Origin: Pseudotamlana agarivorans
GTDB taxonomy: Bacteria > Bacteroidota > Bacteroidia > Flavobacteriales > Flavobacteriaceae
Assembly: GCF_001642835.1 (NCBI RefSeq)
Contig: NZ_LXEI01000013.1
Coordinates: 1 to 64,000 of the forward strand
Length of the DNA stretch: 64,000 nt
Direction of reading: 5' to 3'
Shown: in pieces, positions 1,096-47,062 of the stretch
Layout of the letters: the number at the start of each line of letters is the position of its first letter
Position numbering within the stretch: position 1 is the first letter of the stretch
Position numbers and translations under genes: made by a program
Notes under the pieces: model-generated
What the model saw: only the letters and a program-made list of their open reading frames with translations
What the model was told of the DNA's origin: nothing
Database searches by the model: none

Positions 1096-1139
1096 ATGAC
1101 AATTATCATATGCTGTAAATTGTTGAATTTTCATTTTTG
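1096..1139 (+). promoter_or_regulatory. Fnr-type box and -7 element of ccoI
   Basis: The palindrome ATGACAATTATCAT (1096-1109) has the TGA-N6-TCA core of Crp/Fnr operators. A CATTTTTG element (1132-1139; consensus TAnnTTTG with one mismatch) begins 29.5 bp from the box centre. This predicts a transcript start near 1143 and the box near -41, typical of class II activation. The same spacing recurs upstream of ccoS and hemN. Confidence 0.7.
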
Positions 1140-1152
1140 TTAATAAGAATTA

Positions 1153-3561
1153 ATGAACGAACTTTCTATGGAACATAAAACGTGTTTCCACTGTGGATTA
1201 GATGCTACCGAAGCTGATATCACATTTGACGAAAAACCCTTTTGCTGCAACGGTTGTAAAACCGTTTACGAGATTTTCTCTGAAAATGATTTAACGTCAT
1301 ACTACGATTTACAACAGGCTCCCGGAGCAACACCTAAAGACGTTGAAGGCAAATACAATTTCCTAGACAATGCTAAAATTGTAGAAAATCTACTCGAATT
1401 TAACGATGATAATACTCAAATTGTAAGTCTATACATACCCCACATTCACTGTAGCTCATGCATATGGGTTTTAGAAAACTTGCACAAGCTTAATCCTGCT
1501 GTATCATCGTCCATGGTGAATTTCGGAAAGAAAACGGCTCGTATTACTTATAATGCTCACGAACTATCATTAAAAAACTTAGTTCAGCTACTAAGTCGTA
1601 TAGGTTATGAACCATTTATTAGCTTAGACGATTATTCAGTTGGCAAAAAAAATGTAGATCGCTCGCTAATATACAAACTTGGAGTAGCAGGGTTTGCCTT
1701 TGGAAACATCATGTTTTTATCTTTTCCGGAATATTTTCAAGTAGAAGAATTTTGGCTCGAACAGTTCAAACACCTTTTTAGATGGTTGATGTTTGCATTT
1801 TCATTACCCGTTGTTTTCTATTCGGCACAGGATTATTTTATTTCAGCTTACAAAGGGTTAAAATCACGAATTTTAAATATTGATGTCCCTATAGCTCTCG
1901 GTGCAGCTGTCCTTTTTATTAGAAGTACTGCTGAGATTATTTTAGATATTGGCACGGGCTTTTTTGATAGCCTTGCGGGACTTATCTTTTTTCTCCTTCT
2001 CGGCAAGTTTTTTCAGCAAAAAACATATAGCTTTTTATCGTTTGAACGCGATTATAAATCCTATTTCCCTATCGGAATAACAAAAATATCTGCTGATGGC
2101 GATGAATCATCTATTCAGGTTTACGATATTGAAAAAGGCGATCGTTTACTAATTAGAAACGAAGAACTCATTCCTGTTGATAGCATTTTAATAAAAGGAA
2201 AAGCACGAATTGATTATAGTTTTGTAACCGGTGAATCTGAAGCCGTATCAAAAAAATCGGGCGACAAACTTTACGCTGGCGGCAAACAAGTAGAAGGTAG
2301 CATCGAAATTGAAGTTTTAAAAAGTGTAGAACAGAGCTATTTAACACAGTTATGGAGTAACGATGTGTTTAACAAAAACAAAGAGGATGCTTTTACCACA
2401 TTAACCAACGCGATAAGCAAACGGTTTACCGTAGCGATTTTAAGCATTGCATTTCTAGCCACGAGCTATTGGCTTTTCACCGACTCGTCCAAAGCCTTAA
2501 ATGTGTTTACAGCCGTACTTATTATTGCTTGTCCTTGTGCTATTGCCCTAGCTGCCCCTTTCACATTAGGCAATATGCTTCGTATTTTCGGACGCCAAAA
2601 GTTTTATGCAAAAAACGCATCGGTTATTGAACAATTAGCCAATATAAACACCATTATTTTTGATAAAACAGGCACCATAACAGCCAATAAAGAAACCGCC
2701 ATTTCCTATGAAGGTTCACAGCTTTCTAATGCCGAGGAAGATTTCTTAAAAAGTACTTTACGGAATTCCAACCACCCCTTAAGCCGTTCGTTATATACCT
2801 TATTAAAGGAGAACAATATTGTACCTATAGAAAATTATGAAGAACATATAGGGAAAGGCATTGAAGCCCAATACAATGAGAGTTTTATGAAAATTGGCTC
2901 GGCACCCTTTGTTGGTTTACAGTCGGATGTCAAAAATTTAAATACCGAAGTTCACGTAAGCACCAATAACACCTACAAAGGCAAGTTTACCTTCTATAAT
3001 CGCTACCGCAAAGGGCTTTCAAAGCTCTTCAATCAGCTTAAAGCGACATATGATTTGGTGATATTATCTGGAGACAACGCCGGAGAACAAGAAAATCTCA
3101 CCAAATTACTTCCTGCTAAAACCAAATTGCTTTTTAACCAGAAACCAGAAGACAAACTGGAGTACATTAAACATCATCAAAATTCGGGCGCAAAGGTTTT
3201 AATGGTAGGCGACGGATTAAATGATGCTGGTGCTTTAGCACAGAGTGATGTAGGTATTGCCATTTCAGAAAATGTGAATGTATTCTCTCCAGCTTGTGAT
3301 GCTATTTTAGATGCGTCAAATTTTAATAGCCTATATTATTTCATAAAAGCATCAAAATCAGCTATAACCATTATAAAATGGAGTTTTCTTCTATCTTTAG
3401 TATATAATTCCATAGGCCTTTATTTTGCGGTTACCGGACAATTAGCACCAGTGATAGCCGCTATTTTGATGCCATTAAGTTCAATAAGCATAGTTGTATT
3501 TACGACAATTAGTACTAACTTAGTAGGAAAAAAAATTCAACAGAAGGTTGAAAAAACATGA
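1153..3561 (+). CDS. ccoI: cbb3 oxidase copper-transporting P-type ATPase CcoI/FixI
   Basis: Inner-membrane P1B ATPase expected to supply copper for cbb3 oxidase maturation. The N-terminus carries an extra metal-binding region (Cys11, Cys14 and a CCNGC motif at 31-35) typical of this subfamily, then a heavy-metal-associated domain with Cys100-x-x-Cys103. The membrane CPC motif is at 460-462, the phosphorylation motif DKTGT starts at Asp504, an HP dipeptide follows (SNHPLS), and the hinge motif is GDGLNDAG. At 802 residues it is full length. An alternative ATG at 1168 gives a start (MEHKTCFHCG) that fits the predicted promoter better. It is divergent from the Fnr-type gene and followed by ccoS, whose Fnr-type box overlaps this stop codon. 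Confidence 0.93.
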   Translation: MNELSMEHKTCFHCGLDATEADITFDEKPFCCNGCKTVYEIFSENDLTSYYDLQQAPGATPKDVEGKYNFLDNAKIVENLLEFNDDNTQIVSLYIPHIHCSSCIWVLENLHKLNPAVSSSMVNFGKKTARITYNAHELSLKNLVQLLSRIGYEPFISLDDYSVGKKNVDRSLIYKLGVAGFAFGNIMFLSFPEYFQVEEFWLEQFKHLFRWLMFAFSLPVVFYSAQDYFISAYKGLKSRILNIDVPIALGAAVLFIRSTAEIILDIGTGFFDSLAGLIFFLLLGKFFQQKTYSFLSFERDYKSYFPIGITKISADGDESSIQVYDIEKGDRLLIRNEELIPVDSILIKGKARIDYSFVTGESEAVSKKSGDKLYAGGKQVEGSIEIEVLKSVEQSYLTQLWSNDVFNKNKEDAFTTLTNAISKRFTVAILSIAFLATSYWLFTDSSKALNVFTAVLIIACPCAIALAAPFTLGNMLRIFGRQKFYAKNASVIEQLANINTIIFDKTGTITANKETAISYEGSQLSNAEEDFLKSTLRNSNHPLSRSLYTLLKENNIVPIENYEEHIGKGIEAQYNESFMKIGSAPFVGLQSDVKNLNTEVHVSTNNTYKGKFTFYNRYRKGLSKLFNQLKATYDLVILSGDNAGEQENLTKLLPAKTKLLFNQKPEDKLEYIKHHQNSGAKVLMVGDGLNDAGALAQSDVGIAISENVNVFSPACDAILDASNFNSLYYFIKASKSAITIIKWSFLLSLVYNSIGLYFAVTGQLAPVIAAILMPLSSISIVVFTTISTNLVGKKIQQKVEKT

Positions 3562-3601
3562 TAAATGTCATATTTTAGGATGGCATTTAAAAATATTTTT
3601 G
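3558..3601 (+). promoter_or_regulatory. Fnr-type box and promoter of the ccoS-ccoN operon
   Basis: ATGATAAATGTCAT (3558-3571) overlaps the ccoI stop codon. A perfect TAnnTTTG element, TATTTTTG, occupies 3594-3601 and starts 29.5 bp from the centre of the box. The predicted start is near 3605, 26 bp before the ccoS ATG. The box suggests a second, internal Fnr-dependent promoter for the structural genes. Confidence 0.75.
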
Positions 3602-3630
3602 ATTTCTAAACTTTAATCGAGCACGCCTAA

Positions 3631-3822
3631 ATGAGTGTTATTTATATTCTACTAGCAATCAGTATCCTAGTTGCCATAAGCTTCTTCATCGCATTTGTTG
3701 TTGCCGTAAAAAGCGGTCAGTACGACGACAGCTATACCCCTTCAGTGCGCATGCTCTTTGAAGATGAACTTGTAAAAGAAAAACCAAAAAAAATAAGCAC
3801 TAACCAAAAGACTAATTCTTAA
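3631..3822 (+). CDS. ccoS: cbb3 oxidase maturation protein CcoS
   Basis: Small single-pass membrane protein of 63 residues needed for cofactor insertion in the cbb3 oxidase of other bacteria. It begins MSVIYILLAISILVA, a hydrophobic segment spanning about residues 3-26, and the short cytoplasmic tail is rich in Lys. Size, topology and position between ccoI and ccoN fit the CcoS family. It is separated from ccoN/O by only two bases, so the two are probably co-translated. The predicted Fnr-dependent promoter starts just upstream. Confidence 0.9.
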   Translation: MSVIYILLAISILVAISFFIAFVVAVKSGQYDDSYTPSVRMLFEDELVKEKPKKISTNQKTNS

Positions 3823-3824
3823 CT

Positions 3825-6017
3825 ATGGAAATGCAACAGTTTCATTACGATAACAAAATCGTTACTAAATTTATCTACGCTACAATAGTTTTCGGTGTAG
3901 TTGGCATGGCAGTAGGTTTACTACTTGCCTTTTTGTTTTTATTCCCTAATCTAACCGACGGTATTTCATGGTTAAGTTTTGGGCGATTAAGACCTCTACA
4001 CACCAATGCAGTTATTTTTGCCTTTGTGGGTAATGCCATGTTTGCAGGTATTTATTATTCACTTCAGCGTTTATTAAAAGCGCGTATGGCCAGTGATTTA
4101 CTTAGTAATATTAATTTCTGGGGCTGGCAGCTTATTATCGTTGCTGCTGCGATATCACTGCCTTTAGGCTACACATCATCTAAGGAATATGCCGAATTGG
4201 AATGGCCTATCGATATTGCCATAGCAGTCATTTGGGTGGTTTTTGGTATCAATATGATCTGGACCATTTTAAAACGTAGACAGCGTCATTTATATGTAGC
4301 CATTTGGTTTTATATTGCCACATTCGTAACCGTTGCTGTGCTTCATATATTTAATAATATTGAGTTACCGGTTAGCGCTATGAAAAGTTACTCAGTTTAT
4401 GCCGGAGTTCAAGATGCCTTAGTACAATGGTGGTACGGCCACAATGCGGTAGCATTCTTTTTAACGACGCCGTTTTTAGGATTAATGTATTACTTTGTTC
4501 CTAAAGCGGCTAATAGACCTGTATACTCTTACAGACTTTCTATTGTTCACTTTTGGTCTTTAATCTTTATCTATATCTGGGCAGGGCCTCACCACTTATT
4601 ATATACCGCTTTACCTGAATGGGCTCAAAATTTAGGTGTTGCCTTTTCGGTAATGTTACTTATGCCTTCTTGGGGTGGTATGATAAACGGACTTCTAACC
4701 CTTCGTGGTGCTTGGGATAAGGTACGTACCGATCCTGTTTTAAAATTTATGGTAGTCGCCATAACAGGTTATGGTATGGCCACCTTTGAAGGTCCGATGC
4801 TATCATTAAAAAATGTAAACGCCGTGGCCCACTTTACCGATTGGATTATTGCCCACGTTCACGTAGGTGCACTAGCATGGAACGGTTTCATGGCTTTTGG
4901 TATTATTTACTACCTCATCCCACGATTATTTAAAACGAAACTTTATTCTTTAGCTCTTGCAAATCTTCATTTTTGGTTAGGAACTTTAGGTATTATCATG
5001 TATGCCTTACCGTTATATGTTGCTGGATTTACACAGTATTCTATGTGGCAACAATTTAACCCTGATGGCACTTTAGTTTACGGAAACTTCTTAGAAACCG
5101 TTACCGAAATTATGCCAATGTACTGGATGCGTGCCATTGGTGGTAGTTTATACATTATAGGCATGTTTGTTTTGGTTTACAATATTATTGTAACCATTAA
5201 GCAAGGAACGCCTGTTGAGGATGAATTGGCCCAAGCTCCTGCTTTAGAAAAAGTAACCAACAAAAGAACAGCTAATGAAGGATGGCACACATGGTTAGAG
5301 CGTAGACCAATTCAACTTACCATTTTAGCCACCGTAGCTATTTTAATTGGAGGTATCATTCAAATTGTACCTACGATTATGGTGAAATCAAATATTCCTA
5401 CCATTGCCAGCGTAAAACCTTATACACCTTTAGAACTAGAAGGTCGTGATATCTATATTAGAGAAGGTTGTGTGAGCTGTCACTCTCAAATGATTCGTCC
5501 GTTTAGACACGAAGTAGAGCGTTACGGTGAATACTCTAAAGCGGGTGAATATGTTTACGATCACCCATTCCTATGGGGAAGTAAACGTACTGGACCGGAT
5601 TTACATCGTATTGGTCAAAAGTACTCCGACAACTGGCACTTTAACCATATGTACGACCCACAAAGTACATCTTCGGGTTCTATCATGCCACGTTACCCTT
5701 GGTTAATTACTGGTGAAAGCAGCCGATTAGACAAATCGATGACTGAGACTAAAATGAAAGCCATGGTGTCTCTAGGGGTACCTTACACCGAAGAAGAGAT
5801 TGCCAATGCGCAACAACACATGAATGAACAAGGTGCTCAAATTGAAAAGAATTTATATTCCGATCCTGACTTTGTAACAGCCTATGAAGCTGATAAAAAA
5901 TCGGCCGCCCAAAACGGAGAAGATTTTATAGAAATGAAAGACAGAGAAATTGTTGCTATGATTGCTTATTTACAGCGATTAGGAACCGACATTAAAGTGG
6001 AAACCACACAACAATAA
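3825..6017 (+). CDS. ccoNO: cbb3-type cytochrome c oxidase, fused subunits I and II (CcoN-CcoO)
   Basis: Catalytic heme-copper oxidase plus monoheme cytochrome in a single 730-residue chain, an arrangement common in Bacteroidota. Residues 1 to about 480 form the CcoN part, with multiple membrane helices and His ligands visible in HTNAVIF, WWYGHNAVAF, AGPHHLLY and HVHVGALAW. A membrane anchor then leads to the CcoO part, which holds the heme c motif CVSCH (Cys549, Cys552, His553) followed by SQMIRPF. The enzyme reduces oxygen with high affinity and pumps protons. The gene follows ccoS directly and precedes ccoQ and ccoP. A second ATG lies two codons inside the start. Confidence 0.95.
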   Translation: MEMQQFHYDNKIVTKFIYATIVFGVVGMAVGLLLAFLFLFPNLTDGISWLSFGRLRPLHTNAVIFAFVGNAMFAGIYYSLQRLLKARMASDLLSNINFWGWQLIIVAAAISLPLGYTSSKEYAELEWPIDIAIAVIWVVFGINMIWTILKRRQRHLYVAIWFYIATFVTVAVLHIFNNIELPVSAMKSYSVYAGVQDALVQWWYGHNAVAFFLTTPFLGLMYYFVPKAANRPVYSYRLSIVHFWSLIFIYIWAGPHHLLYTALPEWAQNLGVAFSVMLLMPSWGGMINGLLTLRGAWDKVRTDPVLKFMVVAITGYGMATFEGPMLSLKNVNAVAHFTDWIIAHVHVGALAWNGFMAFGIIYYLIPRLFKTKLYSLALANLHFWLGTLGIIMYALPLYVAGFTQYSMWQQFNPDGTLVYGNFLETVTEIMPMYWMRAIGGSLYIIGMFVLVYNIIVTIKQGTPVEDELAQAPALEKVTNKRTANEGWHTWLERRPIQLTILATVAILIGGIIQIVPTIMVKSNIPTIASVKPYTPLELEGRDIYIREGCVSCHSQMIRPFRHEVERYGEYSKAGEYVYDHPFLWGSKRTGPDLHRIGQKYSDNWHFNHMYDPQSTSSGSIMPRYPWLITGESSRLDKSMTETKMKAMVSLGVPYTEEEIANAQQHMNEQGAQIEKNLYSDPDFVTAYEADKKSAAQNGEDFIEMKDREIVAMIAYLQRLGTDIKVETTQQ

Positions 6018-6036
6018 TGATCTAAAACAAGCAACC

Positions 6037-6225
6037 ATGTTAAAATATATAAAAAACCATATGGAGAGTATTGCCGGTATAGAAATATACCCAATCATCT
6101 CTTTATTAATCTTTTTCATCTTTTTTGTAGCCTTATTTTGGTGGGTTATTACCGCTAAAAAAGATTACATTAATAGAGTGAGTAATTTACCTTTAGACAA
6201 CCACCAAAACGACGACATATTATGA
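6037..6225 (+). CDS. ccoQ: cbb3 oxidase small subunit CcoQ
   Basis: Sixty-two residues with one membrane helix (about residues 15-40, rich in Ile and Phe, followed by WWVITAKK). Position between ccoN/O and ccoP and the length match CcoQ, which stabilises the complex in other bacteria. Sequence conservation in this family is low, so the name rests mostly on position and topology. The last codons overlap the ccoP start in an ATGA arrangement. Confidence 0.8.
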   Translation: MLKYIKNHMESIAGIEIYPIISLLIFFIFFVALFWWVITAKKDYINRVSNLPLDNHQNDDIL

Positions 6226-7208
6226 GAAATTTAGTACCATCTTGGATTCGAGTTCCACTCCTATTTTTTATCGTAGCTGGAACTGTTGAATTCTTTGTAG
6301 ATTCTGGAAATCAGCCGGCCTTTATTAAATACCCAGCCGTTTTAATGTTCTTACTTCTGGTGTTGTTTATATTAATTTCCATTGAAGGTATTGTGGGCTC
6401 GCTAGAGAATGTCATGTTTCAAAAACTGGATCCTGAAGCAAAGGCGCGTTTTATTGCCGACAAAGAAAAAGCATCACAGTTTCCATGGTTAAAGAAAACC
6501 TACCTGAAACTATTAGGTTCAAAACCTTTAGAGAAAGAAGATGAAATTATTTTAGACCATAGTTACGATGGCATTAAAGAATTAGATAATGATTTACCAC
6601 CATGGTGGAAATATGCCTTCTACATATCTATTGTTTTTGCTGTTATTTACCTTTTAAGATACGAAGTGTTTAGTGGCCCATCACAAATTGAAGAATTTGA
6701 CACTGAATTGGCTGAAGCTAAAGTCGCGATTGAAGCTTATAAGAAAACAGCCAAAGGTTTGGTTGATGTAAATACCGTAACCGTACTTACTGAAACAGCC
6801 GATTTAGCCGCAGGTAAAACCATTTTTGAAACCAACTGTGTGGCCTGTCATATGGCCGATGGCGGCGGTGGTATTGGTCCGAATTTAACCGATAATCACT
6901 GGATTCTAGGTGGCGATATTAAAAGCATTTTCCATACCGTTTCTGAAGGTGGTCGTGCAGGAAAAGGGATGATTGCTTGGAAAGCACAATTAAAACCTTT
7001 AGAAATTGCACAGGTAGCCAGTTATGTACTAACATTTCAAGGTACGACACCGGCAAATCCTAAAGCACCTGAAGGCGATATTATTGTAGACCATACAGCT
7101 GAAGCCGTAGAAGCAGTAACAGATACCACTGAAACAACAGCATCAGAAGTGAAAGCTGATAGCATCGCTTTACCCGATGCTACACCAGCTGATATGCCTA
7201 CGGAATAA
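6222..7208 (+). CDS. ccoP: cbb3 oxidase cytochrome c subunit CcoP (monoheme)
   Basis: Membrane-anchored cytochrome c that passes electrons to the oxidase core. The N-terminal third has three hydrophobic segments (about residues 8-26, 34-58 and 124-146) in the FixP N-terminal pattern. The periplasmic part has one heme motif, Cys206-x-x-Cys209-His210, followed by GGGGIGPNLTD. Proteobacterial CcoP usually has two CXXCH motifs; only one is present here. The tail after residue 290 is acidic and rich in Thr, Ala and Glu. It overlaps ccoQ by four bases. Confidence 0.93.
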   Translation: MRNLVPSWIRVPLLFFIVAGTVEFFVDSGNQPAFIKYPAVLMFLLLVLFILISIEGIVGSLENVMFQKLDPEAKARFIADKEKASQFPWLKKTYLKLLGSKPLEKEDEIILDHSYDGIKELDNDLPPWWKYAFYISIVFAVIYLLRYEVFSGPSQIEEFDTELAEAKVAIEAYKKTAKGLVDVNTVTVLTETADLAAGKTIFETNCVACHMADGGGGIGPNLTDNHWILGGDIKSIFHTVSEGGRAGKGMIAWKAQLKPLEIAQVASYVLTFQGTTPANPKAPEGDIIVDHTAEAVEAVTDTTETTASEVKADSIALPDATPADMPTE

Positions 7209-7233
7209 ACGCATTGATTGTAAAAATTAAATT

Positions 7234-7262
7234 GACCTCTTGAGTTATCAAACCAGGAGGTC
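7234..7262 (+). promoter_or_regulatory. hairpin upstream of the TTG-initiated ccoG
   Basis: GACCTCTTG (7234-7242) can pair with CAGGAGGTC (7254-7262), giving nine base pairs with one G-T wobble and an 11-base loop. The 3' arm contains AGGAGG, but it lies 17 bases from the TTG start, too far for a standard ribosome site. There is no T-run, so it is not an obvious terminator; an mRNA processing or attenuation role is possible. Confidence 0.4.
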
Positions 7263-7277
7263 TTAAATACTAAAACC

Positions 7278-8702
7278 TTGGAAACCCCAGACAACGAAAC
7301 ATTTAGAGATTCAATTGGAACGGTAACCAAAGAAGGTAAACGTGCTTGGGTATTTCCTAAAAAACCAAACGGAAAATTTTACAAATACCGTAAGTACGTC
7401 AGTTATGTATTATTGATATTTTTACTGGTTTCGCCTTTTATAAAAGTAAACGGCAATCAGTTTTTAATGTTCAATGTTTTAGAACGCCGCTTTAATATTT
7501 TCGGGTTTCCTTTTTGGCCTCAAGATTTTTATTTGTTTGTAATTTCCATGCTTATCGGGGTCATCTTCATTGCCCTCTTTACCGTGGCTTTTGGTAGGAT
7601 TTTTTGCGGATGGATTTGTCCGCAAACCATTTTCATGGAAATGGTATTTCGTCGTATAGAATTTTGGATTGAAGGCGATCGCGGAAAACAAATGCGCTTG
7701 GCCAAGCAACCTTGGAATGCCGAAAAAATAAGAAAGAAGGGATTAAAACTTATCATTTTTTTAGCCATCTCGTTTATTATCGCTAATGTTTTTCTTGCTT
7801 ATCTTATTGGTAGCGATAAGCTTTTAAGCTATATCAAATCAGGCCCAACCGACCATCTAAGCACACTGGTTTCGTTAATTATTTTTACCGCTGTATTTTA
7901 TTTTGTTTTTGCTTGGTTTAGAGAGCAAGTCTGTATTATAGCTTGCCCCTACGGCAGATTGCAAGGCACCCTTTTAGATAACAAATCTATAGTTGTAGCT
8001 TACGACCATAAACGTGGTGAAGCTGAAAATGGCAGAAAAAAATTCAAGAAAAATGAAGATCGCGAAGCCCTAGGTTTTGGCGATTGTATTGATTGCAAGC
8101 AGTGTGTAAACGTGTGCCCTACTGGTATTGATATTCGAAATGGCACCCAATTAGAATGTGTTAATTGTACGGCATGTATTGACGAATGCGATCATATCAT
8201 GGAAAGCGTCAATTTACCAAAAGGACTTATTCGATATGCTAGTGAAGAAGAAATAGAAAATAAAGCGACCTTTAAGCTAACACCAAGAATGAAAGGCTAC
8301 GCGGCCGTTTTAGTCATATTAGTAGGCTTACTTACAGGCATGTTGTTCTTAAGAAACGATATTGAAGCCAATGTTTTAAGGCTACCAGGACAACTTTACG
8401 AACATAAAGACAACAACATCATTAGTAATGTGTTCACTTATAAACTCGTGAATAAAACTACACACGATTTTAATAACGTCACGCTAAAACTGATGTCACA
8501 TAAGGGTACTTTAAAAATCGTAGCGACTAGCGACACCCTTTTTGTGCCAAGCCAAGGTCTTGCGGAAGGCACTTTATTTGTTGAGATTAACAATAATGAC
8601 TTATCAGGAGATCGCAATAAAATTGAAATTGGCGTTTATAAAGACAACGATTTAATTGAAACGACTACAGCAAACTTTTTAGGACCAAGAAGCTTTAAGT
8701 AG
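7278..8702 (+). CDS. ccoG: cbb3 oxidase assembly ferredoxin-like protein CcoG/RdxA/FixG
   Basis: Membrane-bound iron-sulfur protein that helps deliver copper to the cbb3 oxidase in other bacteria. It has five or so membrane helices, CGWICPQ and CIIACPYG membrane Cys motifs, and two [4Fe-4S] sites (CIDCKQCVNVCP and CVNCTACIDECD). The C-terminal part is an Ig-like FixG domain. The start is a TTG codon: the family-typical N-terminus (PDNETFRDSIG) begins right there and the next Met is about 65 residues inside. At 474 residues it is full length. It follows ccoP by 69 bases containing a hairpin. Confidence 0.93.
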   Translation: METPDNETFRDSIGTVTKEGKRAWVFPKKPNGKFYKYRKYVSYVLLIFLLVSPFIKVNGNQFLMFNVLERRFNIFGFPFWPQDFYLFVISMLIGVIFIALFTVAFGRIFCGWICPQTIFMEMVFRRIEFWIEGDRGKQMRLAKQPWNAEKIRKKGLKLIIFLAISFIIANVFLAYLIGSDKLLSYIKSGPTDHLSTLVSLIIFTAVFYFVFAWFREQVCIIACPYGRLQGTLLDNKSIVVAYDHKRGEAENGRKKFKKNEDREALGFGDCIDCKQCVNVCPTGIDIRNGTQLECVNCTACIDECDHIMESVNLPKGLIRYASEEEIENKATFKLTPRMKGYAAVLVILVGLLTGMLFLRNDIEANVLRLPGQLYEHKDNNIISNVFTYKLVNKTTHDFNNVTLKLMSHKGTLKIVATSDTLFVPSQGLAEGTLFVEINNNDLSGDRNKIEIGVYKDNDLIETTTANFLGPRSFK

Positions 8703-8729
8703 GATAACTAAGAAGGAATTAAACACAGG

Positions 8730-8747
8730 TTCTCGTTCTCACGAGAA
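8730..8747 (+). other. short hairpin between ccoG and ccoH
   Basis: TTCTCGT and ACGAGAA form a seven-pair stem around TCTC, followed by a run of A. On the plus strand there is no T-run, so read-through into ccoH is expected. It may stabilise the upstream transcript. Confidence 0.35.
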
Positions 8748-8767
8748 AAAAAAAACAAAGAACAGCG

Positions 8768-9214: not shown

Positions 9215-9215
9215 T

Positions 9216-9917: not shown

Positions 9918-9990
9918 TTCAATCATATTCATTTAGCATATCATATTTAATTTTGAAGATAGATTAAATCTATGTTAAGGCAATCACTTT

Positions 9991-10013
9991 TAATAGTAAT
10001 ACTATTATATTTG
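9991..10013 (+). promoter_or_regulatory. tetR promoter -7 element with overlapping candidate TetR operator
   Basis: TAATAGT-AAT-ACTATTA (9991-10007) is a perfect inverted repeat with seven-base arms. It overlaps TATATTTG (10006-10013), a perfect TAnnTTTG element. The predicted start near 10017 lies 15 bases before the ATG at 10032. The position fits self-repression by the encoded TetR protein. No good -33 TTG was found at the expected distance. Confidence 0.6.
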
Positions 10014-10031
10014 CAACCAAAATATACAAGC

Positions 10032-12367: not shown

Positions 12368-12376
12368 GCGAGGTTT

Positions 12377-15221: not shown

Positions 15222-15253
15222 CTTTCCAAGGTAGTCCAGTAGTTATTAGATTG

Positions 15254-16618
15254 TTAGATCGTCATAGAAAACAACTGGGTGTGCGGCTTATTTCTTTGTA
15301 ATAACACATCAAAAGCCATACAAATATTACGGACAAATGGTTGACCTTTTTGCGTGACTTCAACACTATTTTTTGTTCTTATAAGCAATCCATCCTGTTC
15401 CATTTCTTCTAATTTAATAAGCATATCTGGCAAGTCATCAAAGTACAAATGCGTTGCTGTCCATGAGGTTTTAAAACGACACATTAAATTGAGTATATGC
15501 TGACGTACCACTAAATCTTCTTCATTTAAAATATGACCACGGTAAACCGGAATAGTGTCACTGTCAAGTAATTTATAGTACGCTTCAATAGACTTCACAT
15601 TCTGTGCAAAACCAAACCAACTATCACTTATAGCGGATACGCCCAAACCAATCATAGCCAAAGTTTTGGAATCGGAATACCCCATGAAATTCCGATGTAA
15701 ATCACCAGAAATCATGGATTTGTATAGACTATCTGATTTCAATGCGAAATGATCCATGCCAATTTCTTCATAACCAACATCAGATAACAATTGCTTTCCT
15801 ATTTCGTACTGTTTTCTTTTTAATTCCCCGGAAGGCACATCGGAATCTTTAAATCCGCGTTGCCCATTCCCTTTTACCCATGGCACATGTGCATAACTAT
15901 AAAAAGCCAAGCGATCTGGTAAAAGCGATTTGGTTTTTAAAATCGTTTCTTTAACATGTTCCAAACTCTGAAAAGGTAAACCATAAATAATATCATGACT
16001 CACCGAGGTGTAACCTATTGCTCTGGCCTGTTCGGTAACACGTTTTACATTTTCAAAAGGTTGAATGCGGTGAATCGCTTTTTGAACCGTGTCATTATAA
16101 TCCTGAACCCCATAACTTACACGTCTAAAGCCTACATCGTATAGGGCTTGTAAATGTTCCTTGGTGGTATTATTAGGGTGACCTTCAAAGCTAAATTCAT
16201 AATTTTCGGCAACAATTGCATGCTCCAAAATACCATTTATGAGCGTTTTTAAGTTTTGCGGACTGAAAAACGTGGGTGTACCGCCTCCAAGATGAAGCGC
16301 TTTAATAACAGGTTTTTCATCAAACATATTTAAATACAGTTGCCATTCCTTTAAAACCGCATTGATGTATGGAGATTCTACACTATGTTGCTTCGTAATG
16401 CGCTTATTACAACCACAAAAGGTGCATAAACTTTCGCAAAATGGCAGGTGAATGTAGAGACTAATTCCTTCTTCGGAGTTACTAGAACTAAAGGCCTTGT
16501 GCAAAGATTTTTTCCAATCGTTTAACGAGAAAGACGTATTATCCCAGTAAGGTACCGTTGGGTAACTCGTGTATCGTGGCCCTGGAATGTTATATTTATT
16601 TACTAAAGCGTTTGACAT
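15254..16618 (-). CDS. hemN: oxygen-independent coproporphyrinogen III oxidase
   Basis: Radical SAM enzyme that converts coproporphyrinogen III to protoporphyrinogen IX without oxygen. The cluster motif is visible in HLPFCESLCTFCGCNK (CxxxCxxC), followed by LHLGGGTPTFF and SYGVQDYN. The frame stays open to 16720, but ATG at 16618 is chosen because the protein then starts MSNALVNKYNIPGPRYTSYP, as in homologs; this gives 454 residues. The preferred start falls at or next to the predicted transcript start, so the message may be leaderless. An Fnr-type box at 16652-16665 fits expression at low oxygen. Confidence 0.95.
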   Translation of the reverse strand: MSNALVNKYNIPGPRYTSYPTVPYWDNTSFSLNDWKKSLHKAFSSSNSEEGISLYIHLPFCESLCTFCGCNKRITKQHSVESPYINAVLKEWQLYLNMFDEKPVIKALHLGGGTPTFFSPQNLKTLINGILEHAIVAENYEFSFEGHPNNTTKEHLQALYDVGFRRVSYGVQDYNDTVQKAIHRIQPFENVKRVTEQARAIGYTSVSHDIIYGLPFQSLEHVKETILKTKSLLPDRLAFYSYAHVPWVKGNGQRGFKDSDVPSGELKRKQYEIGKQLLSDVGYEEIGMDHFALKSDSLYKSMISGDLHRNFMGYSDSKTLAMIGLGVSAISDSWFGFAQNVKSIEAYYKLLDSDTIPVYRGHILNEEDLVVRQHILNLMCRFKTSWTATHLYFDDLPDMLIKLEEMEQDGLLIRTKNSVEVTQKGQPFVRNICMAFDVLLQRNKPHTQLFSMTI

Positions 16619-16621
16619 ACC

Positions 16622-16665
16622 CAAAAATACCTCAATTCGCGATTGTAAAATATGACATTTGTCAT
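16622..16665 (-). promoter_or_regulatory. Fnr-type box and promoter of hemN
   Basis: ATGACATTTGTCAT (16652-16665) is a perfect palindrome. On the minus strand TATTTTTG (16629 to 16622) matches TAnnTTTG and begins 29.5 bp from the palindrome centre, the same distance as at ccoI and ccoS. The predicted transcript start is about 16618, the first base of the hemN ATG. Confidence 0.75.
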
Positions 16666-35136: not shown

Positions 35137-35209
35137 ATTTCCATATATTTTGAACTAAAAAGCTTGAGTTATCATCAAACTAAAGCTTTTTAGTAAGTTT
35201 GATTAATAA

Positions 35210-36613: not shown

Positions 36614-36639
36614 CGTATATTCTTTTTTTAATATGGTTA

Positions 36640-40263: not shown

Positions 40264-40362
40264 AAATTTGTTGTGTGTTAGTTAGACATTCATTTTAATT
40301 AATACGTGATAGAGGGAGCAAGTTTGTACACCGCCAAATGTTTTACTTAACTCCCTTTTTTT

Positions 40363-41508: not shown

Positions 41509-41615
41509 GTGTCTTTTAGGTGTCTTTATATATTAAGACTACATAATTTTAAAATACACCTGCTCAAAAACAACTTTTTTTAAAAAAAAGTTTAAATTCA
41601 TGTTAAAAGACACAT
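41507..41615 (-). promoter_or_regulatory. long-range inverted repeat masking the fecR start
   Basis: TAAAAGACACAT (41518 to 41507 on the minus strand) includes the first two bases of the fecR ATG. It is perfectly complementary to ATGTGTCTTTTA at 41615 to 41604, with an 85-base loop that holds a second symmetric stretch (AACTTTTTTT / AAAAAAAGTT, 41572-41591). Pairing would hide the translation start. Confidence 0.45.
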
Positions 41616-41706
41616 AAAACATAGGGATATAAACAAAAAAAACACTAAACGAAAACACATTTATCTCAATAAATACAGGTAAACTGTGTGAGTTAAAAAA
41701 ACAGTT

Positions 41707-42294
41707 TTATTTATTTTTTATGAGGAAGAAGATGAAATCAATACTTAAAGACACACTTAGCGACATTCTTAAAAATCGCAATGCCTTACTAATATGGCCT
41801 TCTACAGTGCGTAGTGAAATATTAAGTTGAGCAGCTATCGCTTTATTGCTTAGTCCCTCTTCTCTACTTAACCTAAACACCTCTTTACATTTTTCGGGAA
41901 GTGCATCAATAACCGACTCGACATGCTGAATCAGTTCTTTATGCATCAATTGGGTTTCTGGTGTAAGCGCTTGAATTTTTTCATTGAAGTTGGTTACCAG
42001 TTCAACTTCTATCATATTTTTATTTTTTCTAAAAAAATCGTACACCTTATATATAGTACTTGTATATAAATAACTTTTAAGTGAGGTTTTAACCAACAGT
42101 TTATCTCTTTTATTCCATAGGTTAACAAATACATCCTGCACAATATCTTCGGAAATCTCTTTATTTTTCACTAAATTATAGGCAGCCACATACATAACCT
42201 CCCAATATTCTTTATAAATAAGGGACAGTGCTAGTTCATCACCATCATGGAGGAGCTGTATTAAATAATCGTCGTTTTGTGATAGTCCTGACAA
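41707..42294 (-). CDS. ECF sigma-70 factor of the Bacteroidota FecR-linked type
   Basis: Sigma factor of 195 residues with region 2 (ALSLIYKEYWEVMYVAAYNL and EDIVQDVFVNLW) and region 4 (LSREEGLSNKAIAAQLNISL then RTVEGHISKALRFLR). It forms a pair with FecR and is expected to drive expression of the SusC/SusD locus. A 198-bp gap separates it from fecR, which is longer than normal. Confidence 0.93.
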   Translation of the reverse strand: MSGLSQNDDYLIQLLHDGDELALSLIYKEYWEVMYVAAYNLVKNKEISEDIVQDVFVNLWNKRDKLLVKTSLKSYLYTSTIYKVYDFFRKNKNMIEVELVTNFNEKIQALTPETQLMHKELIQHVESVIDALPEKCKEVFRLSREEGLSNKAIAAQLNISLRTVEGHISKALRFLRMSLSVSLSIDFIFFLIKNK

Positions 42295-42524
42295 TATTTA
42301 TGATTTTGGATTCTGTAAAAAATCAAATAGAAGTATTTTAATTGTAATTTCATACTAAAAGTAACATTTTTTTATAAAAATCTTAGCCTTTAGAGCCAAT
42401 TACAACAAGAAAAACAACATAACAATATTATAACAGGATTTATCTCAGTAGCTAAGAATCAGAATGTTTTAGAAAACACATTTTTATGTTTAAATACAAA
42501 AACAAATTTAAAGCTTATAAAAAC
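42295..42524. other. intergenic region
   Basis: AT-rich 230-bp gap between the sigma gene and the LytTR regulator gene (stop at 42525). No promoter or terminator that I can support. Confidence 0.4.
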
Positions 42525-43280
42525 CTATTCTAGCCACAACTTAAAATCCTTAACACGTTCTCTGGCCACTATAACCTCTTGATCATGATAACTGTTTAGT
42601 TTTATTTGTAGTCGGGAATTGGTATAACTTACCATATCTTTAATGGCGTTAATGTTTACAAAGAATTTGCGATTAATGCGGAAGAAGCTTTCAGGTTCTA
42701 ATTCGTTTTCCAAGAAATCTAGGGTGTGGTCTAACAAATAATTCCGGCCTTCGGTGGTATGAATATAAGTGCCTTTATTTTCGCTGTAGATACATTCAAT
42801 ATCTTCTACTTGAATAAGCTTTATGTGCTGCCCCACTTTTACCGAAAACCTTTTTTTATAAGCCCGATCTATTGGGTTTATAAGTAACTTTTTGATATCA
42901 TTAAAATCTAAGGTTACATCCTGAGACCGGGTAGTTCGGTTTTTAAATTTTTCTACGGCTAGTAATAGCTCATCCTCATCGATGGGTTTTAACAAATAAT
43001 CGATACTATTTAATTTGAAGGCTTTAAGCGCATATTCATCGTAAGCCGTGGTGAAGATAATAGCTGACTTGATATCGACCGTTTCAAAAATCTCAAATGA
43101 GAGTCCGTCGCTTAATTGAATATCCAAAAATATTAAATCGGGATGCGGATTATTTTGAAACCATGTTATAGACTCTTCAACCGAATGTAAAAGCACATGA
43201 GCTTCAAGATTACAACCTTCTAACAAACGTTGTAAACGTCGTGCCGATGGTTTTTCGTCTTCTATAATAATAATGTTCAT
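42525..43280 (-). CDS. LytTR-family response regulator
   Basis: Two-component regulator, 251 residues. Receiver domain (1-120) with phosphoacceptor Asp in DLIFLDIQLSDG, followed by a LytTR DNA-binding domain (about 145-250: FSVKVGQHIKLIQVEDIECI, YIHTTEGRNYLL, FFRINRKFFVNINAIKDM). It belongs with the LytS-type kinase encoded upstream at 44149-45489; the two 2TM genes lie between them. Confidence 0.93.
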   Translation of the reverse strand: MNIIIIEDEKPSARRLQRLLEGCNLEAHVLLHSVEESITWFQNNPHPDLIFLDIQLSDGLSFEIFETVDIKSAIIFTTAYDEYALKAFKLNSIDYLLKPIDEDELLLAVEKFKNRTTRSQDVTLDFNDIKKLLINPIDRAYKKRFSVKVGQHIKLIQVEDIECIYSENKGTYIHTTEGRNYLLDHTLDFLENELEPESFFRINRKFFVNINAIKDMVSYTNSRLQIKLNSYHDQEVIVARERVKDFKLWLE

Positions 43281-43316
43281 TGTGTAAAACTATAAATTAA
43301 ACAGGGACTAGGCTTT

Positions 43317-43464
43317 GCGTTAGGCCTGCCGGCAGGCAGGGATTACTCATTGCTTTTTAATTTTGTCTTTTGGAAATCGTGAATGCACAGCATTTGCAGT
43401 GGAAATCCTTTTTTTTATTTCTAAAAAAAGATTGTAACGTAAAGCCCGACCCTTGTGGTAACGC
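43317..43464. repeat. ~148-bp interspersed repeat with GCGTTA / TAACGC ends
   Basis: The element begins GCGTTAGGCCTGCC and ends GGTAACGC, with inverted ends GCGTTA / TAACGC. It contains the palindrome GCCTGCCGGCAGGC (43324-43337) and, read on the minus strand, CGGGCTTTACGTTACAATC and GGATTTCCACTGCAA. These words recur in flavobacterial intergenic repeats I know. GC content in the palindrome is far above the neighbourhood. It separates the 2TM gene from the LytTR gene. Confidence 0.6.
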
Positions 43465-43481
43465 CCTTATAAGATCCAAAC

Positions 43482-43799
43482 TTATTCCCATCGTTTTATT
43501 TGGTTGTCGGTTTCCATGAATTCGCGTATTTTTTTGGATTCCCAATCTTTTTTAAAGAAGATTTTACCTCTAAACACGTTCCAACCATGTATAACTATAA
43601 AGGCTGTCCAAGCCACTAAAATACAAATATCAAACCATTGAAAAAATGGTTTATAGGGACCTGACATGATGTATAAATTATAACTAAGGAGCGCAACAAC
43701 TACAAAATACCCAACCAAATGAATGTAGAATATTTTTAGGTTTCTAAGCTTTTTCTTGGCTTCAAATAATAACAGTTCATTTTTGTCTTCTGGTTTCAT
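43482..43799 (-). CDS. 2TM domain protein
   Basis: Small membrane protein, 105 residues, with two hydrophobic helices (about 25-45 and 55-75). LRNLKIFYIHLVGYFVVVAL, then FIVIHGWNVFRGKIFFKKDW and IREFMETDN, matches the flavobacterial 2TM pattern. It is the third 2TM copy in a row: the histidine kinase C-terminus and 44137 carry the others. Probably membrane sensing or complex assembly; not known. Confidence 0.85.
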   Translation of the reverse strand: MKPEDKNELLLFEAKKKLRNLKIFYIHLVGYFVVVALLSYNLYIMSGPYKPFFQWFDICILVAWTAFIVIHGWNVFRGKIFFKKDWESKKIREFMETDNQIKRWE

Positions 43800-43810
43800 G
43801 TGCCTATAAA

Positions 43811-44137
43811 TTAAAAGTTTTGTCGTTCCTTATCCATGTACTCCTTAATTTTTCGCTCTTCCCAAGCTTTCCCGAAAAGCAAGTCTACGCCAAACACGGT
43901 CATGGCGTGGAATGCGAGTCCTATACCCCAAAACAAAGGGGTTGCGAAAGTGCCAAAACTAAAGAAATCACCGCCATTAAATACAATCATACAAATGATA
44001 AAAACATTTACTACGATGTACCAGAAGGCGTGCCAGTAAAAGCCTTTAAGTTCTTTTAAGCGCTTTTCCGCTCGTAAATAAGCCTCCTCACGACGAAATT
44101 TTTCGCTCCTATAATCCTGTGGGTTTTGTGTTTCCAT
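43811..44137 (-). CDS. 2TM domain protein
   Basis: Small membrane protein of 108 residues from the ATG at 44137; an upstream ATG at 44158 would overlap the kinase stop codon by ten bases. RLKELKGFYWHAFWYIVVNV, GIGLAFHAMTVFGVDLLFGK and EERKIKEYMD match the other 2TM copies. It lies directly downstream of the kinase gene. Confidence 0.85.
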   Translation of the reverse strand: METQNPQDYRSEKFRREEAYLRAEKRLKELKGFYWHAFWYIVVNVFIICMIVFNGGDFFSFGTFATPLFWGIGLAFHAMTVFGVDLLFGKAWEERKIKEYMDKERQNF

Positions 44138-44148
44138 AATGTTTTGAT

Positions 44149-45489
44149 TTATTGCCATTTATTTTCATCTTCTTGCATAAACTGCTCAATTTTACGCTTT
44201 TCCCAGTTGCGCCCAAAGGCGCCATCGTCTACAAAAACACGAAAGGCCTGAACAACTAAACCTATACCCCAGCCAAACATGGGGAACCAAAACCACTGGA
44301 AGCCCCAATAGGTTTTAAAGTTTACAAAAATTAAAAAAGGAATAACTACGAGATAAGAGCCTAGGCTATAATAAAATCCTTTAAGTTCCTCGACGTGCTT
44401 GCGTGCGCGTACGTAACTGTCGTCTAAATGTGATTGTGATGTATGTGTTCTCATGATTGATATTTGTTTGGTAAGCATTGGTATTGCTACAGCAAAACGG
44501 TTTGCTTCTTTAATGATATTTATTTTTCTATGGGTAAGTAAGTTGTAGCGTTGGTTGATGTTATTTAAACCTACACCACTACTCTTTTTTACAATTTGTT
44601 TTGGCTGAAAGTTATTTTCGACCACCAAATCGTTTCCGTCTTCAAAAATGGTTATATGCAAAGGTTTACTTGGCGTAACCATATTGTGTTTTACCGCATT
44701 TTCTAGTAACAATTGCAGCGATAAAGGCACGACTTTACTTTCGGGGTTTGTAGCTTGCTCTGGCATATTGAATACGATGCTATCTTCGAAACGCATTTTT
44801 AATAAAGACATGTAGGTTTTGGCAAACTGCAACTCCTCGTCTACCGTTACCAATTCTTTATTTTTTTGTTCTAAAACATAACGATAGACTTTGGATAGAC
44901 CCGTTGTAAATTTTTGTGCGTTTTTCGGATTTTCTTCAATTAAACTAGTTAGTACATTTAAACTATTGAATAGAAAATGTGGGTCTAATTGATTTTTTAA
45001 AGCATCGAATTTCGCACTTGCAGTGCCCGCGATAACCTTTTGTTCTTTAAGCTTGTTTTGCTGATACCTATTGTAGTAATAAATAACATTAAAAACCGCG
45101 ATGATGCTTAAGGTTATCCAAAGTCCAAATTGATAATATTCCAGTTTTTCACGCTCCAAAAAGGTACTAAAATCTACCCCATAATACAGAGTAGCCGTAA
45201 TGGCTCTAAGCAGAAAAAGCCCAACTATAGTAATAAGGACAGCGCCTATGACACTTATTGCAATACGTTTTTTCCATTTTCCCTCTTTCCAATTTACGCG
45301 GTCTAAATATGCAAAGAAATATATATTTGAAAACCCTAGTACAAAAGCATACAATTGATAAAACACAAAATCTATAAAGATTTCACTAGTATTATTTCCA
45401 TCAAAACCACCAGAAATTAAAGTGCCCATTACAAAAACGACACTACCTATTACAAAGGTTAGAATGATATTTTTTAGGAGTTTTGACAT
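44149..45489 (-). CDS. LytS-type sensor histidine kinase fused to a C-terminal 2TM domain
   Basis: Membrane sensor kinase, 446 residues. Four N-terminal helices (to about residue 140), the LytS-type phosphoacceptor region (DPHFLFNSLNVLTSLIEENP), and ATP-binding text (LLLENAVKHN, GVGLNNINQRYNLL). After residue about 345 the chain continues with MRTHTSQSHLDDSYVRARKH, VEELKGFYYSLGSYLVVIPF and a second helix, which is a full 2TM domain like the two separate 2TM genes downstream. No stop lies between. Partner of the LytTR regulator at 42525. Confidence 0.88.
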   Translation of the reverse strand: MSKLLKNIILTFVIGSVVFVMGTLISGGFDGNNTSEIFIDFVFYQLYAFVLGFSNIYFFAYLDRVNWKEGKWKKRIAISVIGAVLITIVGLFLLRAITATLYYGVDFSTFLEREKLEYYQFGLWITLSIIAVFNVIYYYNRYQQNKLKEQKVIAGTASAKFDALKNQLDPHFLFNSLNVLTSLIEENPKNAQKFTTGLSKVYRYVLEQKNKELVTVDEELQFAKTYMSLLKMRFEDSIVFNMPEQATNPESKVVPLSLQLLLENAVKHNMVTPSKPLHITIFEDGNDLVVENNFQPKQIVKKSSGVGLNNINQRYNLLTHRKINIIKEANRFAVAIPMLTKQISIMRTHTSQSHLDDSYVRARKHVEELKGFYYSLGSYLVVIPFLIFVNFKTYWGFQWFWFPMFGWGIGLVVQAFRVFVDDGAFGRNWEKRKIEQFMQEDENKWQ

Positions 45490-45878
45490 GGATAAAGAAT
45501 GGTATATAAAAATTGGACGTTTAAATTTAGTAAAAAGAAAATTGGAAGCTTGAATTGGCTAAAAGTTTCAATTTAAATGATCATGTGTTCTTGTTTCATA
45601 TTTTAAGTTTTAAAGGTTAATATGAGACAAATATCTAAACGAAGGGGGCTTTTAAAAAAAAACAAGTACCCAATTGTAAAATAAAGGAGATGAACTGTTG
45701 ATGGTTGATATTTTAATCACAAAAGCTGCCTTAAAAGTCGGTTTTTCGTCAATCTGAAATAATTTCAGATCCTCATCATCATGGCCATTCCATGTGATGA
45801 GATTCAGTGTCAAGCAAAGCATGACGATTGTTTTAACTTTTCAGACAGCTTCTTACTATTGAGTACAACCAGCTTTTA
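45490..45878. other. intergenic region containing repeat element B
   Basis: A 389-bp gap between the tonB stop and the kinase start. The middle is a 129-bp repeat element (separate entry). GATATTTG on the minus strand at 45635-45628 is a weak candidate -7 element for the kinase operon. Confidence 0.45.
45723..45851. repeat. ~130-bp element with inverted ends, copy B
   Basis: Ends AAGCTGCCTTAAAAGT and ACTTTTCAGACAGCTT are inverted. The interior (TTTTTCGTCAATCTGAAAT, TTTCAGAT, GATGAGAT, GCATGACGATTGTTTTAAC) matches the reverse complement of the element at 54926-55065 along most of its length. A 129-bp unit; not coding. Confidence 0.75.
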
Positions 45879-46613
45879 CTATTTTGATCTATACTTAAAA
45901 AAGATAGGTACGGCATATGATACTTTTACAGGCACACCGCGTTGCGTTCCAGGGGTCATTTTCGGCAACAAACTAATAATACGCTCAGCTTCATTCTCTA
46001 AAATCTTATCGGGTCCTCTTGATTTTATGGATGAGATACGCCCTTGACTATCAATAACAAAAATAACAGAAACACGCCCCTGAATCTCTAAATCTAAAGC
46101 GGCTTGGGGATACCTAAAGTTTTTCGTGACGTGCTCTGTTACCTTATTTTTAAAACAATCTATGGCAGCCTGTTTAGTAAGACCTTCGCAACCAGGAAAC
46201 ACAGGAACCTTCTCGATAACAGCAAAAGGCACTTCAACCTCTTCTTCTACTTCCTCTACTTCTACGGCTTGAACAGCAACAGGAATGGACTCTACACTAA
46301 CAGCATCTTCGAGCCCAATTTCAGAGCTTTCGACAACAGTTTCTTCTACCTCAACAACATCTTCAACTATTTTAATAGCCTCTGTTATAGATGCTGGAGG
46401 TGGTGGTGGCGGTGGGGTATTCAATTGTACAATTGGGATGTCTTCCTCAAATTGTTTTTCAACAACCAAAGCTTCGATACTTACTTCCTTAGAATCGTAA
46501 GTCTTATACTCTAAAGCTTGCCAAGTAAAAAACAACATCAAATTTAATCCTATAGCAAAATAAATGCTGCTATGTCTCCCAATTTCGATCTCAGGATTCT
46601 TCTTAGCTTTCAT
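45879..46613 (-). CDS. TonB-family energy transducer
   Basis: Inner-membrane protein, 244 residues, coupling the proton gradient to outer-membrane receptors. One membrane helix (SSIYFAIGLNLMLFF), a proline run (PPPPPPP) and a long acidic linker, then the C-terminal TonB domain (VTKNFRYPQAALDLEIQGRV, SVIFVIDSQGRI, PGTQRGVPVKVSYAVPI). Alone in its operon and with a candidate Fnr-type promoter. TonB should serve the SusC and receptor proteins in this region. Confidence 0.92.
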   Translation of the reverse strand: MKAKKNPEIEIGRHSSIYFAIGLNLMLFFTWQALEYKTYDSKEVSIEALVVEKQFEEDIPIVQLNTPPPPPPPASITEAIKIVEDVVEVEETVVESSEIGLEDAVSVESIPVAVQAVEVEEVEEEVEVPFAVIEKVPVFPGCEGLTKQAAIDCFKNKVTEHVTKNFRYPQAALDLEIQGRVSVIFVIDSQGRISSIKSRGPDKILENEAERIISLLPKMTPGTQRGVPVKVSYAVPIFFKYRSK

Positions 46614-47062
46614 GACGATATAGTTTAGAAATTACTTTTTAACCTTCTTAAAGCTAGTAAATAACCTCTAAAAAAACCATGACAAAAATCATAATAACAA
46701 ACTATTTCACAAGTATTTACACTAATCACCAATTAACTTTATCCCTTATAAAAACAAGCCTATTTGCTTAAGGTGCTTTCCTTAATTTATGGCATCAATT
46801 CTGGCCATGAAACAAACATTTTAAAAGCCAAACCCTGCCTTTAAACAAAAAAAACAGCCTGTGTAGCATTATAAAAACACTCTAAATCTTACCTTTAATG
46901 CTATCATAAATAGAATTCAAAAAAATATTTTTACGAAAGTGTAACAAATTAAAAGTTTCTGCATCTTATCTATTGAACTGATTTAAACCTTTTGCGTTTA
47001 TGTAATAATTGGTTTTTAGCAAACGAAAAAATGTAAACCAGTTCAAAAACTAATCCAATCCA
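46614..47062. other. intergenic region, tonB / ECF gene
   Basis: A 449-bp gap between two divergent genes. Apart from the candidate tonB promoter at 46649-46692, it shows no conserved element I can support. A clear TAnnTTTG promoter for the ECF gene was not found. Confidence 0.4.
46649..46692 (-). promoter_or_regulatory. candidate Fnr-type box and promoter of tonB
   Basis: ATGACAAAAATCAT (46679-46692) matches ATGAY-N4-RTCAT. On the minus strand TAGCTTTA (46656 to 46649) fits TAnnTTTG with one mismatch and begins 29.5 bp from the box centre, the spacing seen at ccoI, ccoS and hemN. The predicted start is near 46645, 32 bp before the tonB ATG. Confidence 0.5.

Follow-up and report, generated by a model that had tools for sequence, protein, structure and literature searches.

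Introduction

In Escherichia coli, FNR carries the recognition-helix motif E-x-x-S-R, binds the half-site TTGAT and uses C20, C23, C29 and C122 as cysteine ligands, and a site centred at -41.5 is the classical class II site of both CRP and FNR. The proteobacterial FNR, Anr and FnrL regulons have in common the Crp/Fnr fold, the Glu and Arg of the recognition helix, the TGA-N6-TCA core and the -41.5 position, and they share cco, hemN, denitrification genes and Usp as targets. In this study we analysed a 64,000-nucleotide stretch of the Pseudotamlana agarivorans genome (assembly GCF_001642835.1, contig NZ_LXEI01000013.1, positions 1 to 64,000; hereafter the window), in which palindromes of the form ATGAY-N4-RTCAT stand before genes for a cbb3 oxidase (cco), hemN and a tonB paralogue. 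Our analysis makes it highly probable that these palindromes are the operators of an FNR-like class II activator, which is encoded beside ccoI and would be active when oxygen is scarce.

Compared with the proteobacterial systems, the boxes described here are combined with the Bacteroidota promoter element TAnnTTTG, their outer base is A and not T, and the regulator has an Ile in place of Ser212 of E. coli FNR and the cysteine set CxxC-C53-C106; in addition, a TonB paralogue and a multi-copy putative small RNA appear as members. In Flavobacterium psychrophilum, low oxygen leads to the induction of cbb3 and heme genes, and no regulator is named in the passages that describe this response (PMC9723704). 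Among the open-access full-text matches listed, there was no paper that defined a flavobacterial oxygen regulon.

Results

Fnr-type boxes lie at a fixed distance from the promoter element

An earlier note on this DNA had claimed four palindromes with identical geometry, at 1096..1109, 3558..3571, 16652..16665 and 46679..46692. All four are present, and they are the only matches to ATGAY-N4-RTCAT in the window, whereas 100 shuffles gave a mean of 0.26 matches and none of them reached four. The geometry is indeed the same, as the centre of every box lies 29.5 bp ahead of the first base of a TAnnTTTG-like -7 element, which equals 22 bp between box and element (N22, or gap 22). The elements of ccoS and hemN (both TATTTTTG) agree with all six specified bases, and those of ccoI (CATTTTTG) and tonB (TAGCTTTA) with five of the six. 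Since the sigma-A element TAnnTTTG is found at -12 to -5 in F. psychrophilum (PMC9723704), the boxes would be centred at -41.5, the position of a class II activator. If the transcription starts lie as in that species, the 29.5-bp spacing would thus have a mechanistic meaning.

The whole P. agarivorans genome (3.83 Mb in 50 contigs) contains 37 ATGAY-N4-RTCAT sites, compared with 17 for the reversed pattern. When the box was combined with TAnnTTTG and 31 spacings were allowed, 10 matches were obtained, eight of them at exactly N22 (p 5e-11). We also read all 37 sites for an element with at least 5/6 bases at gap 22 on either strand, and it was found at 16 of the 20 intergenic sites but at only 2 of the 17 sites within open reading frames (ORFs; p 5e-5). 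Here the ccoI and hemN boxes, both placed inside ORFs by the script, were counted as intergenic because the longest ORFs there start upstream of the likely starts. The intergenic boxes without such an element are those of nap (4/6), a multiheme cytochrome (2/6), nrdJ (4/6) and locus L022; the first three may belong to weaker or different promoters.

The relatives were represented by 99 genomes from 79 genera, the P. agarivorans genome included; matches in relatives are those listed, and the counts per genome are complete. The fixed pattern box-N22-TAnnTTTG gave 255 matches in 62 of the 99 genomes and a single match for the reversed control, so the enrichment of this spacing in related genomes, which the earlier note had put forward as a check, was borne out. 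The box also occurs at orthologous ccoI, ccoS, hemN and tonB genes in other genera. With free spacing, 86 of the 150 matches listed were at gap 22, eight at gap 23 and seven at gap 34. In a class-wide set of 198 genomes, the fixed pattern was present in 78, with two control matches. The outer A and T of the box matter, judging from the 168 matches with the A..T pair against 67 (5 in the control) for the nine pairs with neither base in the same 60 genomes, a comparison from which mixed pairs were left out. The half-site differs from the TTGAT of E. coli; TTGAY sites do occur, e.g., four in genome G071.

The cco locus and the promoter of the regulator gene

For footprints at the cco locus we used the loci of the best 80 of 386 regulator matches, which are hence close relatives (the best of them, from Tamlana species, show 96% identity), and in the counts at ccoI, ccoS, hemN and tonB any outer base of the box was allowed. 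Box 1 (1096..1109) lies between the regulator gene, hereafter fnr (382..1059, minus strand; 225 aa, MGKCEQC...), and a plus-strand gene for a P-type ATPase (1153..3561), recognised by profile and called CcoI by its place; its score exceeds the general P-type ATPase cut-off and stays under those of the copper and heavy-metal subfamilies. The ccoI -7 element occupies 1132..1139 (plus strand). Box 2 (3558..3571) overlaps the ccoI stop codon and is followed on the plus strand by the ccoS element (3594..3601) and a 63-aa ORF (3631..3822), CcoS-like in place and size, which we take to be ccoS. Downstream on the same strand are a ccoN/ccoO fusion (3825..6017, profile over cut-off), a gene for a ccoP-like cytochrome c subunit (6222..7208; TIGR00782, 111.5 against a cut-off of 180) and ccoG (7278..8702, profile over cut-off).

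After the exclusion of three of the 80 loci that were too short, 73 of the remaining 77 named loci have a gap-22 box at ccoI, the other four being without a match. At ccoS it was recognised in 64 of 77; the gene-name expression missed ccoS in the other 13, of which 10 have a gap-22 TAnnTTTG box listed at the right place. The consensus first T of the element is absent from ccoI in 72 of 73 loci and present at ccoS in 64 of 64, and the last base of the tonB element is not G in any of 15 boxed loci. By this comparison ccoI and tonB retain their own off-consensus -7 elements, and departures that are conserved in this way suggest a promoter strength adjusted to each gene separately.

We rejected the idea that fnr is controlled at this same distance of 22 bp, where the sequence (ACAAATTT) contains no element. 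Instead, a putative fnr -7 element (TACTTTTA, 1080..1087, minus strand) lies 8 bp from box 1. Of the 66 loci that have a box close to fnr, 58 show an fnr-strand element of at least 5/6 at this distance (6/6 in 11), and no other gap exceeded 21 of these loci; the remaining 14 of the 80 named loci have no box near fnr. In this arrangement box 1 would cover the fnr promoter and block it. Thus, the box that serves ccoI probably also represses fnr, which would amount to negative feedback.

Boxes at hemN and tonB

The gene for oxygen-independent coproporphyrinogen III oxidase, hemN (15254..16615, minus strand, profile over cut-off), is preceded by its -7 element (16622..16629, minus strand) and box 3 (16652..16665). 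A gap-22 box was found at 23 of the 30 best-matching hemN loci, 15 with an outer A and eight with an outer C or G; it was present at 20 of the 25 loci from genomes with the regulator and at three of the five from genomes without it. A lipoprotein gene runs divergently from hemN; we rejected its activation by this box, as its side has no element at gap 22 (AATAATCA).

The fourth box (46679..46692) and its element (46649..46656, minus strand) stand before a tonB paralogue (45879..46613, minus strand), whose TonB C-terminal domain scores just over the cut-off (29.0 vs 27.1). The earlier note had included tonB only tentatively; among 30 tonB loci the box is present in 15, all of which fall within the 17 best matches (own genome included), and these 17 come from the own genus and 11 other genera. 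The cut at 17 was set after seeing which of the 30 loci carry boxes. Of the two misses above it, L264 begins 15 bases from a contig end, so that its promoter lies outside the sequence. None of the 13 lower matches (≤57% identity) has a box, and these would represent other TonB types. Eleven of the 15 boxes have an outer A, and the elements match at 5/6 in 10 cases and at 4/6 in five. On this evidence from conservation the TonB paralogue belongs to the regulon. Downstream of tonB (42525-45489, minus strand), the window encodes a 2TM-domain histidine kinase, two 2TM proteins and a LytTR response regulator.

The regulator conserves a cysteine set of its own

The protein encoded beside ccoI has a cyclic-nucleotide-binding (CNB) domain, an HTH_Crp_2 domain and the CRP/FNR fold. 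As had been noted from its sequence, the recognition helix contains ExxxR: E191 and R195 do not vary among 80 close orthologues or among 31 diverse ones, which were hand-picked (10 of them are also among the 80; L218-L220, L222-L226 and others were left out). The helix reads E191-x-x-I194-R195, with Ile at the place of the E. coli Ser in 31 of 31 sequences, and not E-x-x-S-R.

Thirty of the 31 diverse orthologues contain each of C4, C7, C53 and C106, and all four are seen in six more that were read by eye. The lone exception, L246, lacks all four; its source genome has 17 Crp/Fnr matches and L246 may be a paralogue. Among the other cysteines, C29 occurs in 19 and C59 in 25 of the 31, and the low conservation of C29 (19/31) led us to reject it as a ligand. 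In the HMMER alignment, C4, C7 and C106 stand opposite C20, C23 and C122 of FNR (FNR numbering as given above), so that three of the four E. coli ligands align. By this alignment the regulator conserves CxxC, C53 and C106 instead of the full E. coli cysteine set, which is a new feature, and C53 would replace FNR C29 as the fourth cluster ligand.

The best PDB sequence match is the Porphyromonas gingivalis Crp/Fnr structure 2gau (2e-43), which has no Cys opposite C53 or C106; C4 and C7 are outside the aligned part. The fold comparison of the predicted model returned 50 rows, mostly cyclic-nucleotide domains, among which 2gau was the best row spanning nearly the whole model (213 residues, root-mean-square deviation 11.5). 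Aliivibrio fischeri FNR was outside these 50 rows, and we give no weight to its absence.

Regulon members

The proteins encoded behind the gap-22 boxes listed for relatives (85 of the 86 regions were obtained) were clustered together with those of the own sites; the overlapping-box pairs L129/L130 and L189/L190 were not separated. The largest group is cytochrome c with 14 members, including the own L004 and the own multiheme L009 (the latter without a gap-22 element), followed by ccoN (12), hemN (10), thioredoxin-like proteins (8), pta (4) and Usp (4). Pairs include NadA, a ribosome-hibernation-like protein and a nirK-like protein (copper oxidase plus cytochrome c), and a PFL-like protein is single. 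Many of the remaining members are singletons, and four regions are without a gene. The own sites contribute hemE and two YceI proteins (5/6 elements) as well as three cases with weak elements, namely a napA-containing cluster, the B12-dependent ribonucleotide reductase NrdJ and the multiheme cytochrome. Judged by their boxes, cytochrome c, pta and hemE join the regulon, and nrdJ and nap probably do so as well. Genes of a low-oxygen type after boxes comprise cco, hemN, cytochrome c, thioredoxin-like, Usp, PFL-like and nirK-like genes in relatives and hemE in the own genome.

Both YceI-like genes (L014 on own contig 47 and L015 on own contig 1) have a box with GATATTTG at gap 22. A 602-aa protein without a Pfam or NCBIfam match (L003, 141-1946, minus strand) has a gap-22 box here and in another genus (L128), and a norC-like pair was named by eye only. 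In relative G019 (L159), a gap-22 box with TATTTTTG precedes a cobalamin riboswitch (Rfam RF00174, 122 bits). Together with NrdJ, this riboswitch makes B12 a candidate cargo of the TonB paralogue, and in Bordetella a copper TonB-dependent transporter is tied to oxidases (PMC12914433); B12 or copper as the cargo is speculation. The window also contains a Bacteroid-trp leader RNA (RF01692) at 62489-62612.

A putative small RNA behind four boxes

Four own boxes, three on contig 12 and one on contig 33, are placed 22 bp before GAACTTTG, which is followed by a near-identical stretch of about 90 nt (L008 on contig 12, 2268, 2560 and 4051; L012 on contig 33, 2135). The stretch ends with a strong hairpin and a T run, as in an intrinsic terminator, and the flanks diverge between copies. 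Two of the four copies, folded as 90-mers, gave -21 and -18.5 kcal/mol (z -3.4 and -2.8), the energy coming mostly from the terminator hairpin. No Rfam match was present at these places and no notable ORF was seen by eye, nor was the stretch found in plasmids, phages, viral contigs or the 64-kb window. FnrS of E. coli is likewise a small noncoding RNA that ends in an intrinsic terminator and has an FNR-type box before it; in contrast, the transcript here is putative, present in four copies and without an Rfam match. A multi-copy small RNA under FNR-type control is thus a candidate that is as yet unproven.

In relative G038 (L138), a terminator-like hairpin follows a gap-22 box with TACTTTTG after about 125 nt and ahead of the next gene, which makes this region a further candidate for a box-driven small RNA. 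The Flavo-1 RNA motif (RF01705) occurs in the window at 43394-43444 and in L012 at 2514-2663, about 240 nt after the putative small RNA copy.

Boxes and the regulator occur together

Among the genomes of the family, boxes were present in 38 of 39 with a close orthologue of the regulator (E <1e-60; mean 5.0 boxes), in 11 of 14 with a weaker homologue only and in two of seven with none or a very weak one, G053 being one of these two. In the order outside the family, boxes were found in one of five genomes with a weaker homologue and in none of 17 without a homologue, many of the latter being small genomes. With a limit of 1e-40 across the 99 genomes, 49 of 58 genomes with the regulator and 13 of 41 without it are boxed. 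Both limits (1e-60 and 1e-40) were chosen after seeing the matches. The regulator and ccoN occur together in 54 genomes, the regulator alone in four, ccoN alone in 14 and neither in 27 (p 3e-10).

Discussion

The results support the interpretation of the earlier note that these boxes belong to an Fnr-type regulon. We propose that the regulator becomes active when oxygen is scarce, through an oxygen-labile Fe-S cluster that would be held by C4, C7, C53 and C106. Its dimer would then bind boxes of the form ATGAY-N4-RTCAT that have their centre at -41.5 and, in the manner of class II, activate the flavobacterial sigma-A promoter (TAnnTTTG, -12 to -5). In this way the cbb3 oxidase and its copper supply would be switched on, along with oxygen-independent heme synthesis and accessory functions, the TonB paralogue among them, and the ccoI box, placed over the promoter of fnr itself, would provide negative feedback on fnr.

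Several observations weigh against this proposal. The regulator scores 92.3 bits against the NCBIfam Fnr family, the best of 13 families listed, where the cut-off is 228. FNR C29 has no Cys counterpart in the HMMER alignment, and L246 is without the four cysteines. In the predicted model (predicted local distance difference test, pLDDT, 83; predicted template modelling score 0.61), residues 1-4 have a pLDDT <50, which puts the cluster site beyond view. Genome G031 lacks boxes despite a close Fnr, and G053 (82% complete) has ccoN and six boxes with neither a close Fnr nor a regulator of the receiver (REC) type. Boxes occur in only 10 of the 17 genomes of the order outside the family that have a homologue below 1e-40, and they occur in nine of the 10 genomes that have ccoN and a REC-type regulator without a close Fnr. 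Finally, the hypoxia genes of F. psychrophilum are also upregulated in iron scarcity (PMC9723704), a poor fit to a simple Fe-S switch.

A rival reading is that the boxes are shared. All or part of them would be read by the FNR-like protein of own contig 7, whose gene is about 7 kb away from the nap box, or by REC-CNB-HTH regulators in the case of relatives, so that the regulon would integrate several signals. Four own Crp/Fnr proteins lie above the PF13545 cut-off, and two of them have E-x-x-I-R, the ccoI-adjacent regulator and the contig-7 protein, which carries C-x2-C-x4-C. The motif is also present in the six REC-type proteins read, and with such a common helix several proteins could recognise the box. 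REC-CNB-HTH regulators are present in nine of the 13 boxed genomes without the regulator; all 14 genomes with Fnr, ccoN and the REC type are boxed, with the highest mean (6.36), and REC-type genes have a gap-22 box no more than 100 bp away in at least G054, G018, G033, G045 and G042. However, the own genome has no REC-type match at 1e-60, G017, searched with the regulator at E 0.001, has a lone match, which is Fnr itself, and yet one box is present, and the ccoI box adjoins fnr in most named loci. We consider such sharing possible, on balance doubtful, and to credit every box to the ccoI-adjacent protein would go beyond the co-occurrence itself. The REC-CNB-HTH response regulators read (L227-L232, from G054, G018, G047, G045, G059 and G032) are about 350 aa long and have the E-x-x-I-R helix. 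Those of G054 and G018 have as a neighbour a gene of the Usp cluster that carries a gap-22 box.

Less likely is a regulator that recognises DNA as FNR does and responds through its cysteines to another signal (a thiol switch, nitric oxide or heme) and not to oxygen by a [4Fe-4S] cluster. The cysteine layout is unlike that of E. coli FNR, nirK-like genes lie downstream of boxes in two relatives, and PgRsp of P. gingivalis, another Bacteroidota Crp/Fnr protein, is described as heme-binding (PMC6955866). Nevertheless, CxxC and C106 align with FNR C20, C23 and C122, the four cysteines are absent together in the one exceptional orthologue, and the core targets are low-oxygen genes, all of which makes this alternative improbable in our view.

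A carbon-sensing MalR-like regulon is very improbable. Crp/FNR homologues of Flavobacteriales were predicted to be MalR-like carbon sensors in a meta-regulon study, where the prediction is based on clustering near MalR with mostly hypothetical targets (PMC8510549). In our data the recurrent targets are respiratory, heme and redox genes, CxxC and C106 are conserved, and pta (four members) is the sole central-carbon cluster. Chance palindromes can practically be dismissed. In their favour, TGA-N6-TCA alone is just slightly enriched in the window (26 vs 16.8), but the shuffles, the reversed-pattern controls, the exact spacing and the footprints in relatives rule out a chance origin of the full boxes.

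Returning to the FNR-like activator beside ccoI, a broader picture is plausible, though we put it forward tentatively: the Bacteroidota may have an FNR of their own, a class-wide oxygen switch with its cluster on CxxC, C53 and C106 that activates TAnnTTTG promoters from a site at exactly -41.5. Its output would be adjusted for each gene by conserved off-consensus -7 elements, and it would control respiration, a TonB dedicated to nutrient uptake at low oxygen (B12 or copper, perhaps) and an FnrS-like small RNA in several copies. Judging from the cysteine pattern, the oxygen-sensing cluster may be held in a different manner, and the TonB paralogue and the small RNA would widen the response so that it also takes in the uptake of nutrients and, possibly, control after transcription. 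Flavobacteria are major marine and soil heterotrophs, and the regulator, its site, the promoter geometry and the gene list can now be tested where genetics exist. The same arrangement of boxes before low-oxygen respiration genes in many relatives points to a shared control of the oxygen response.

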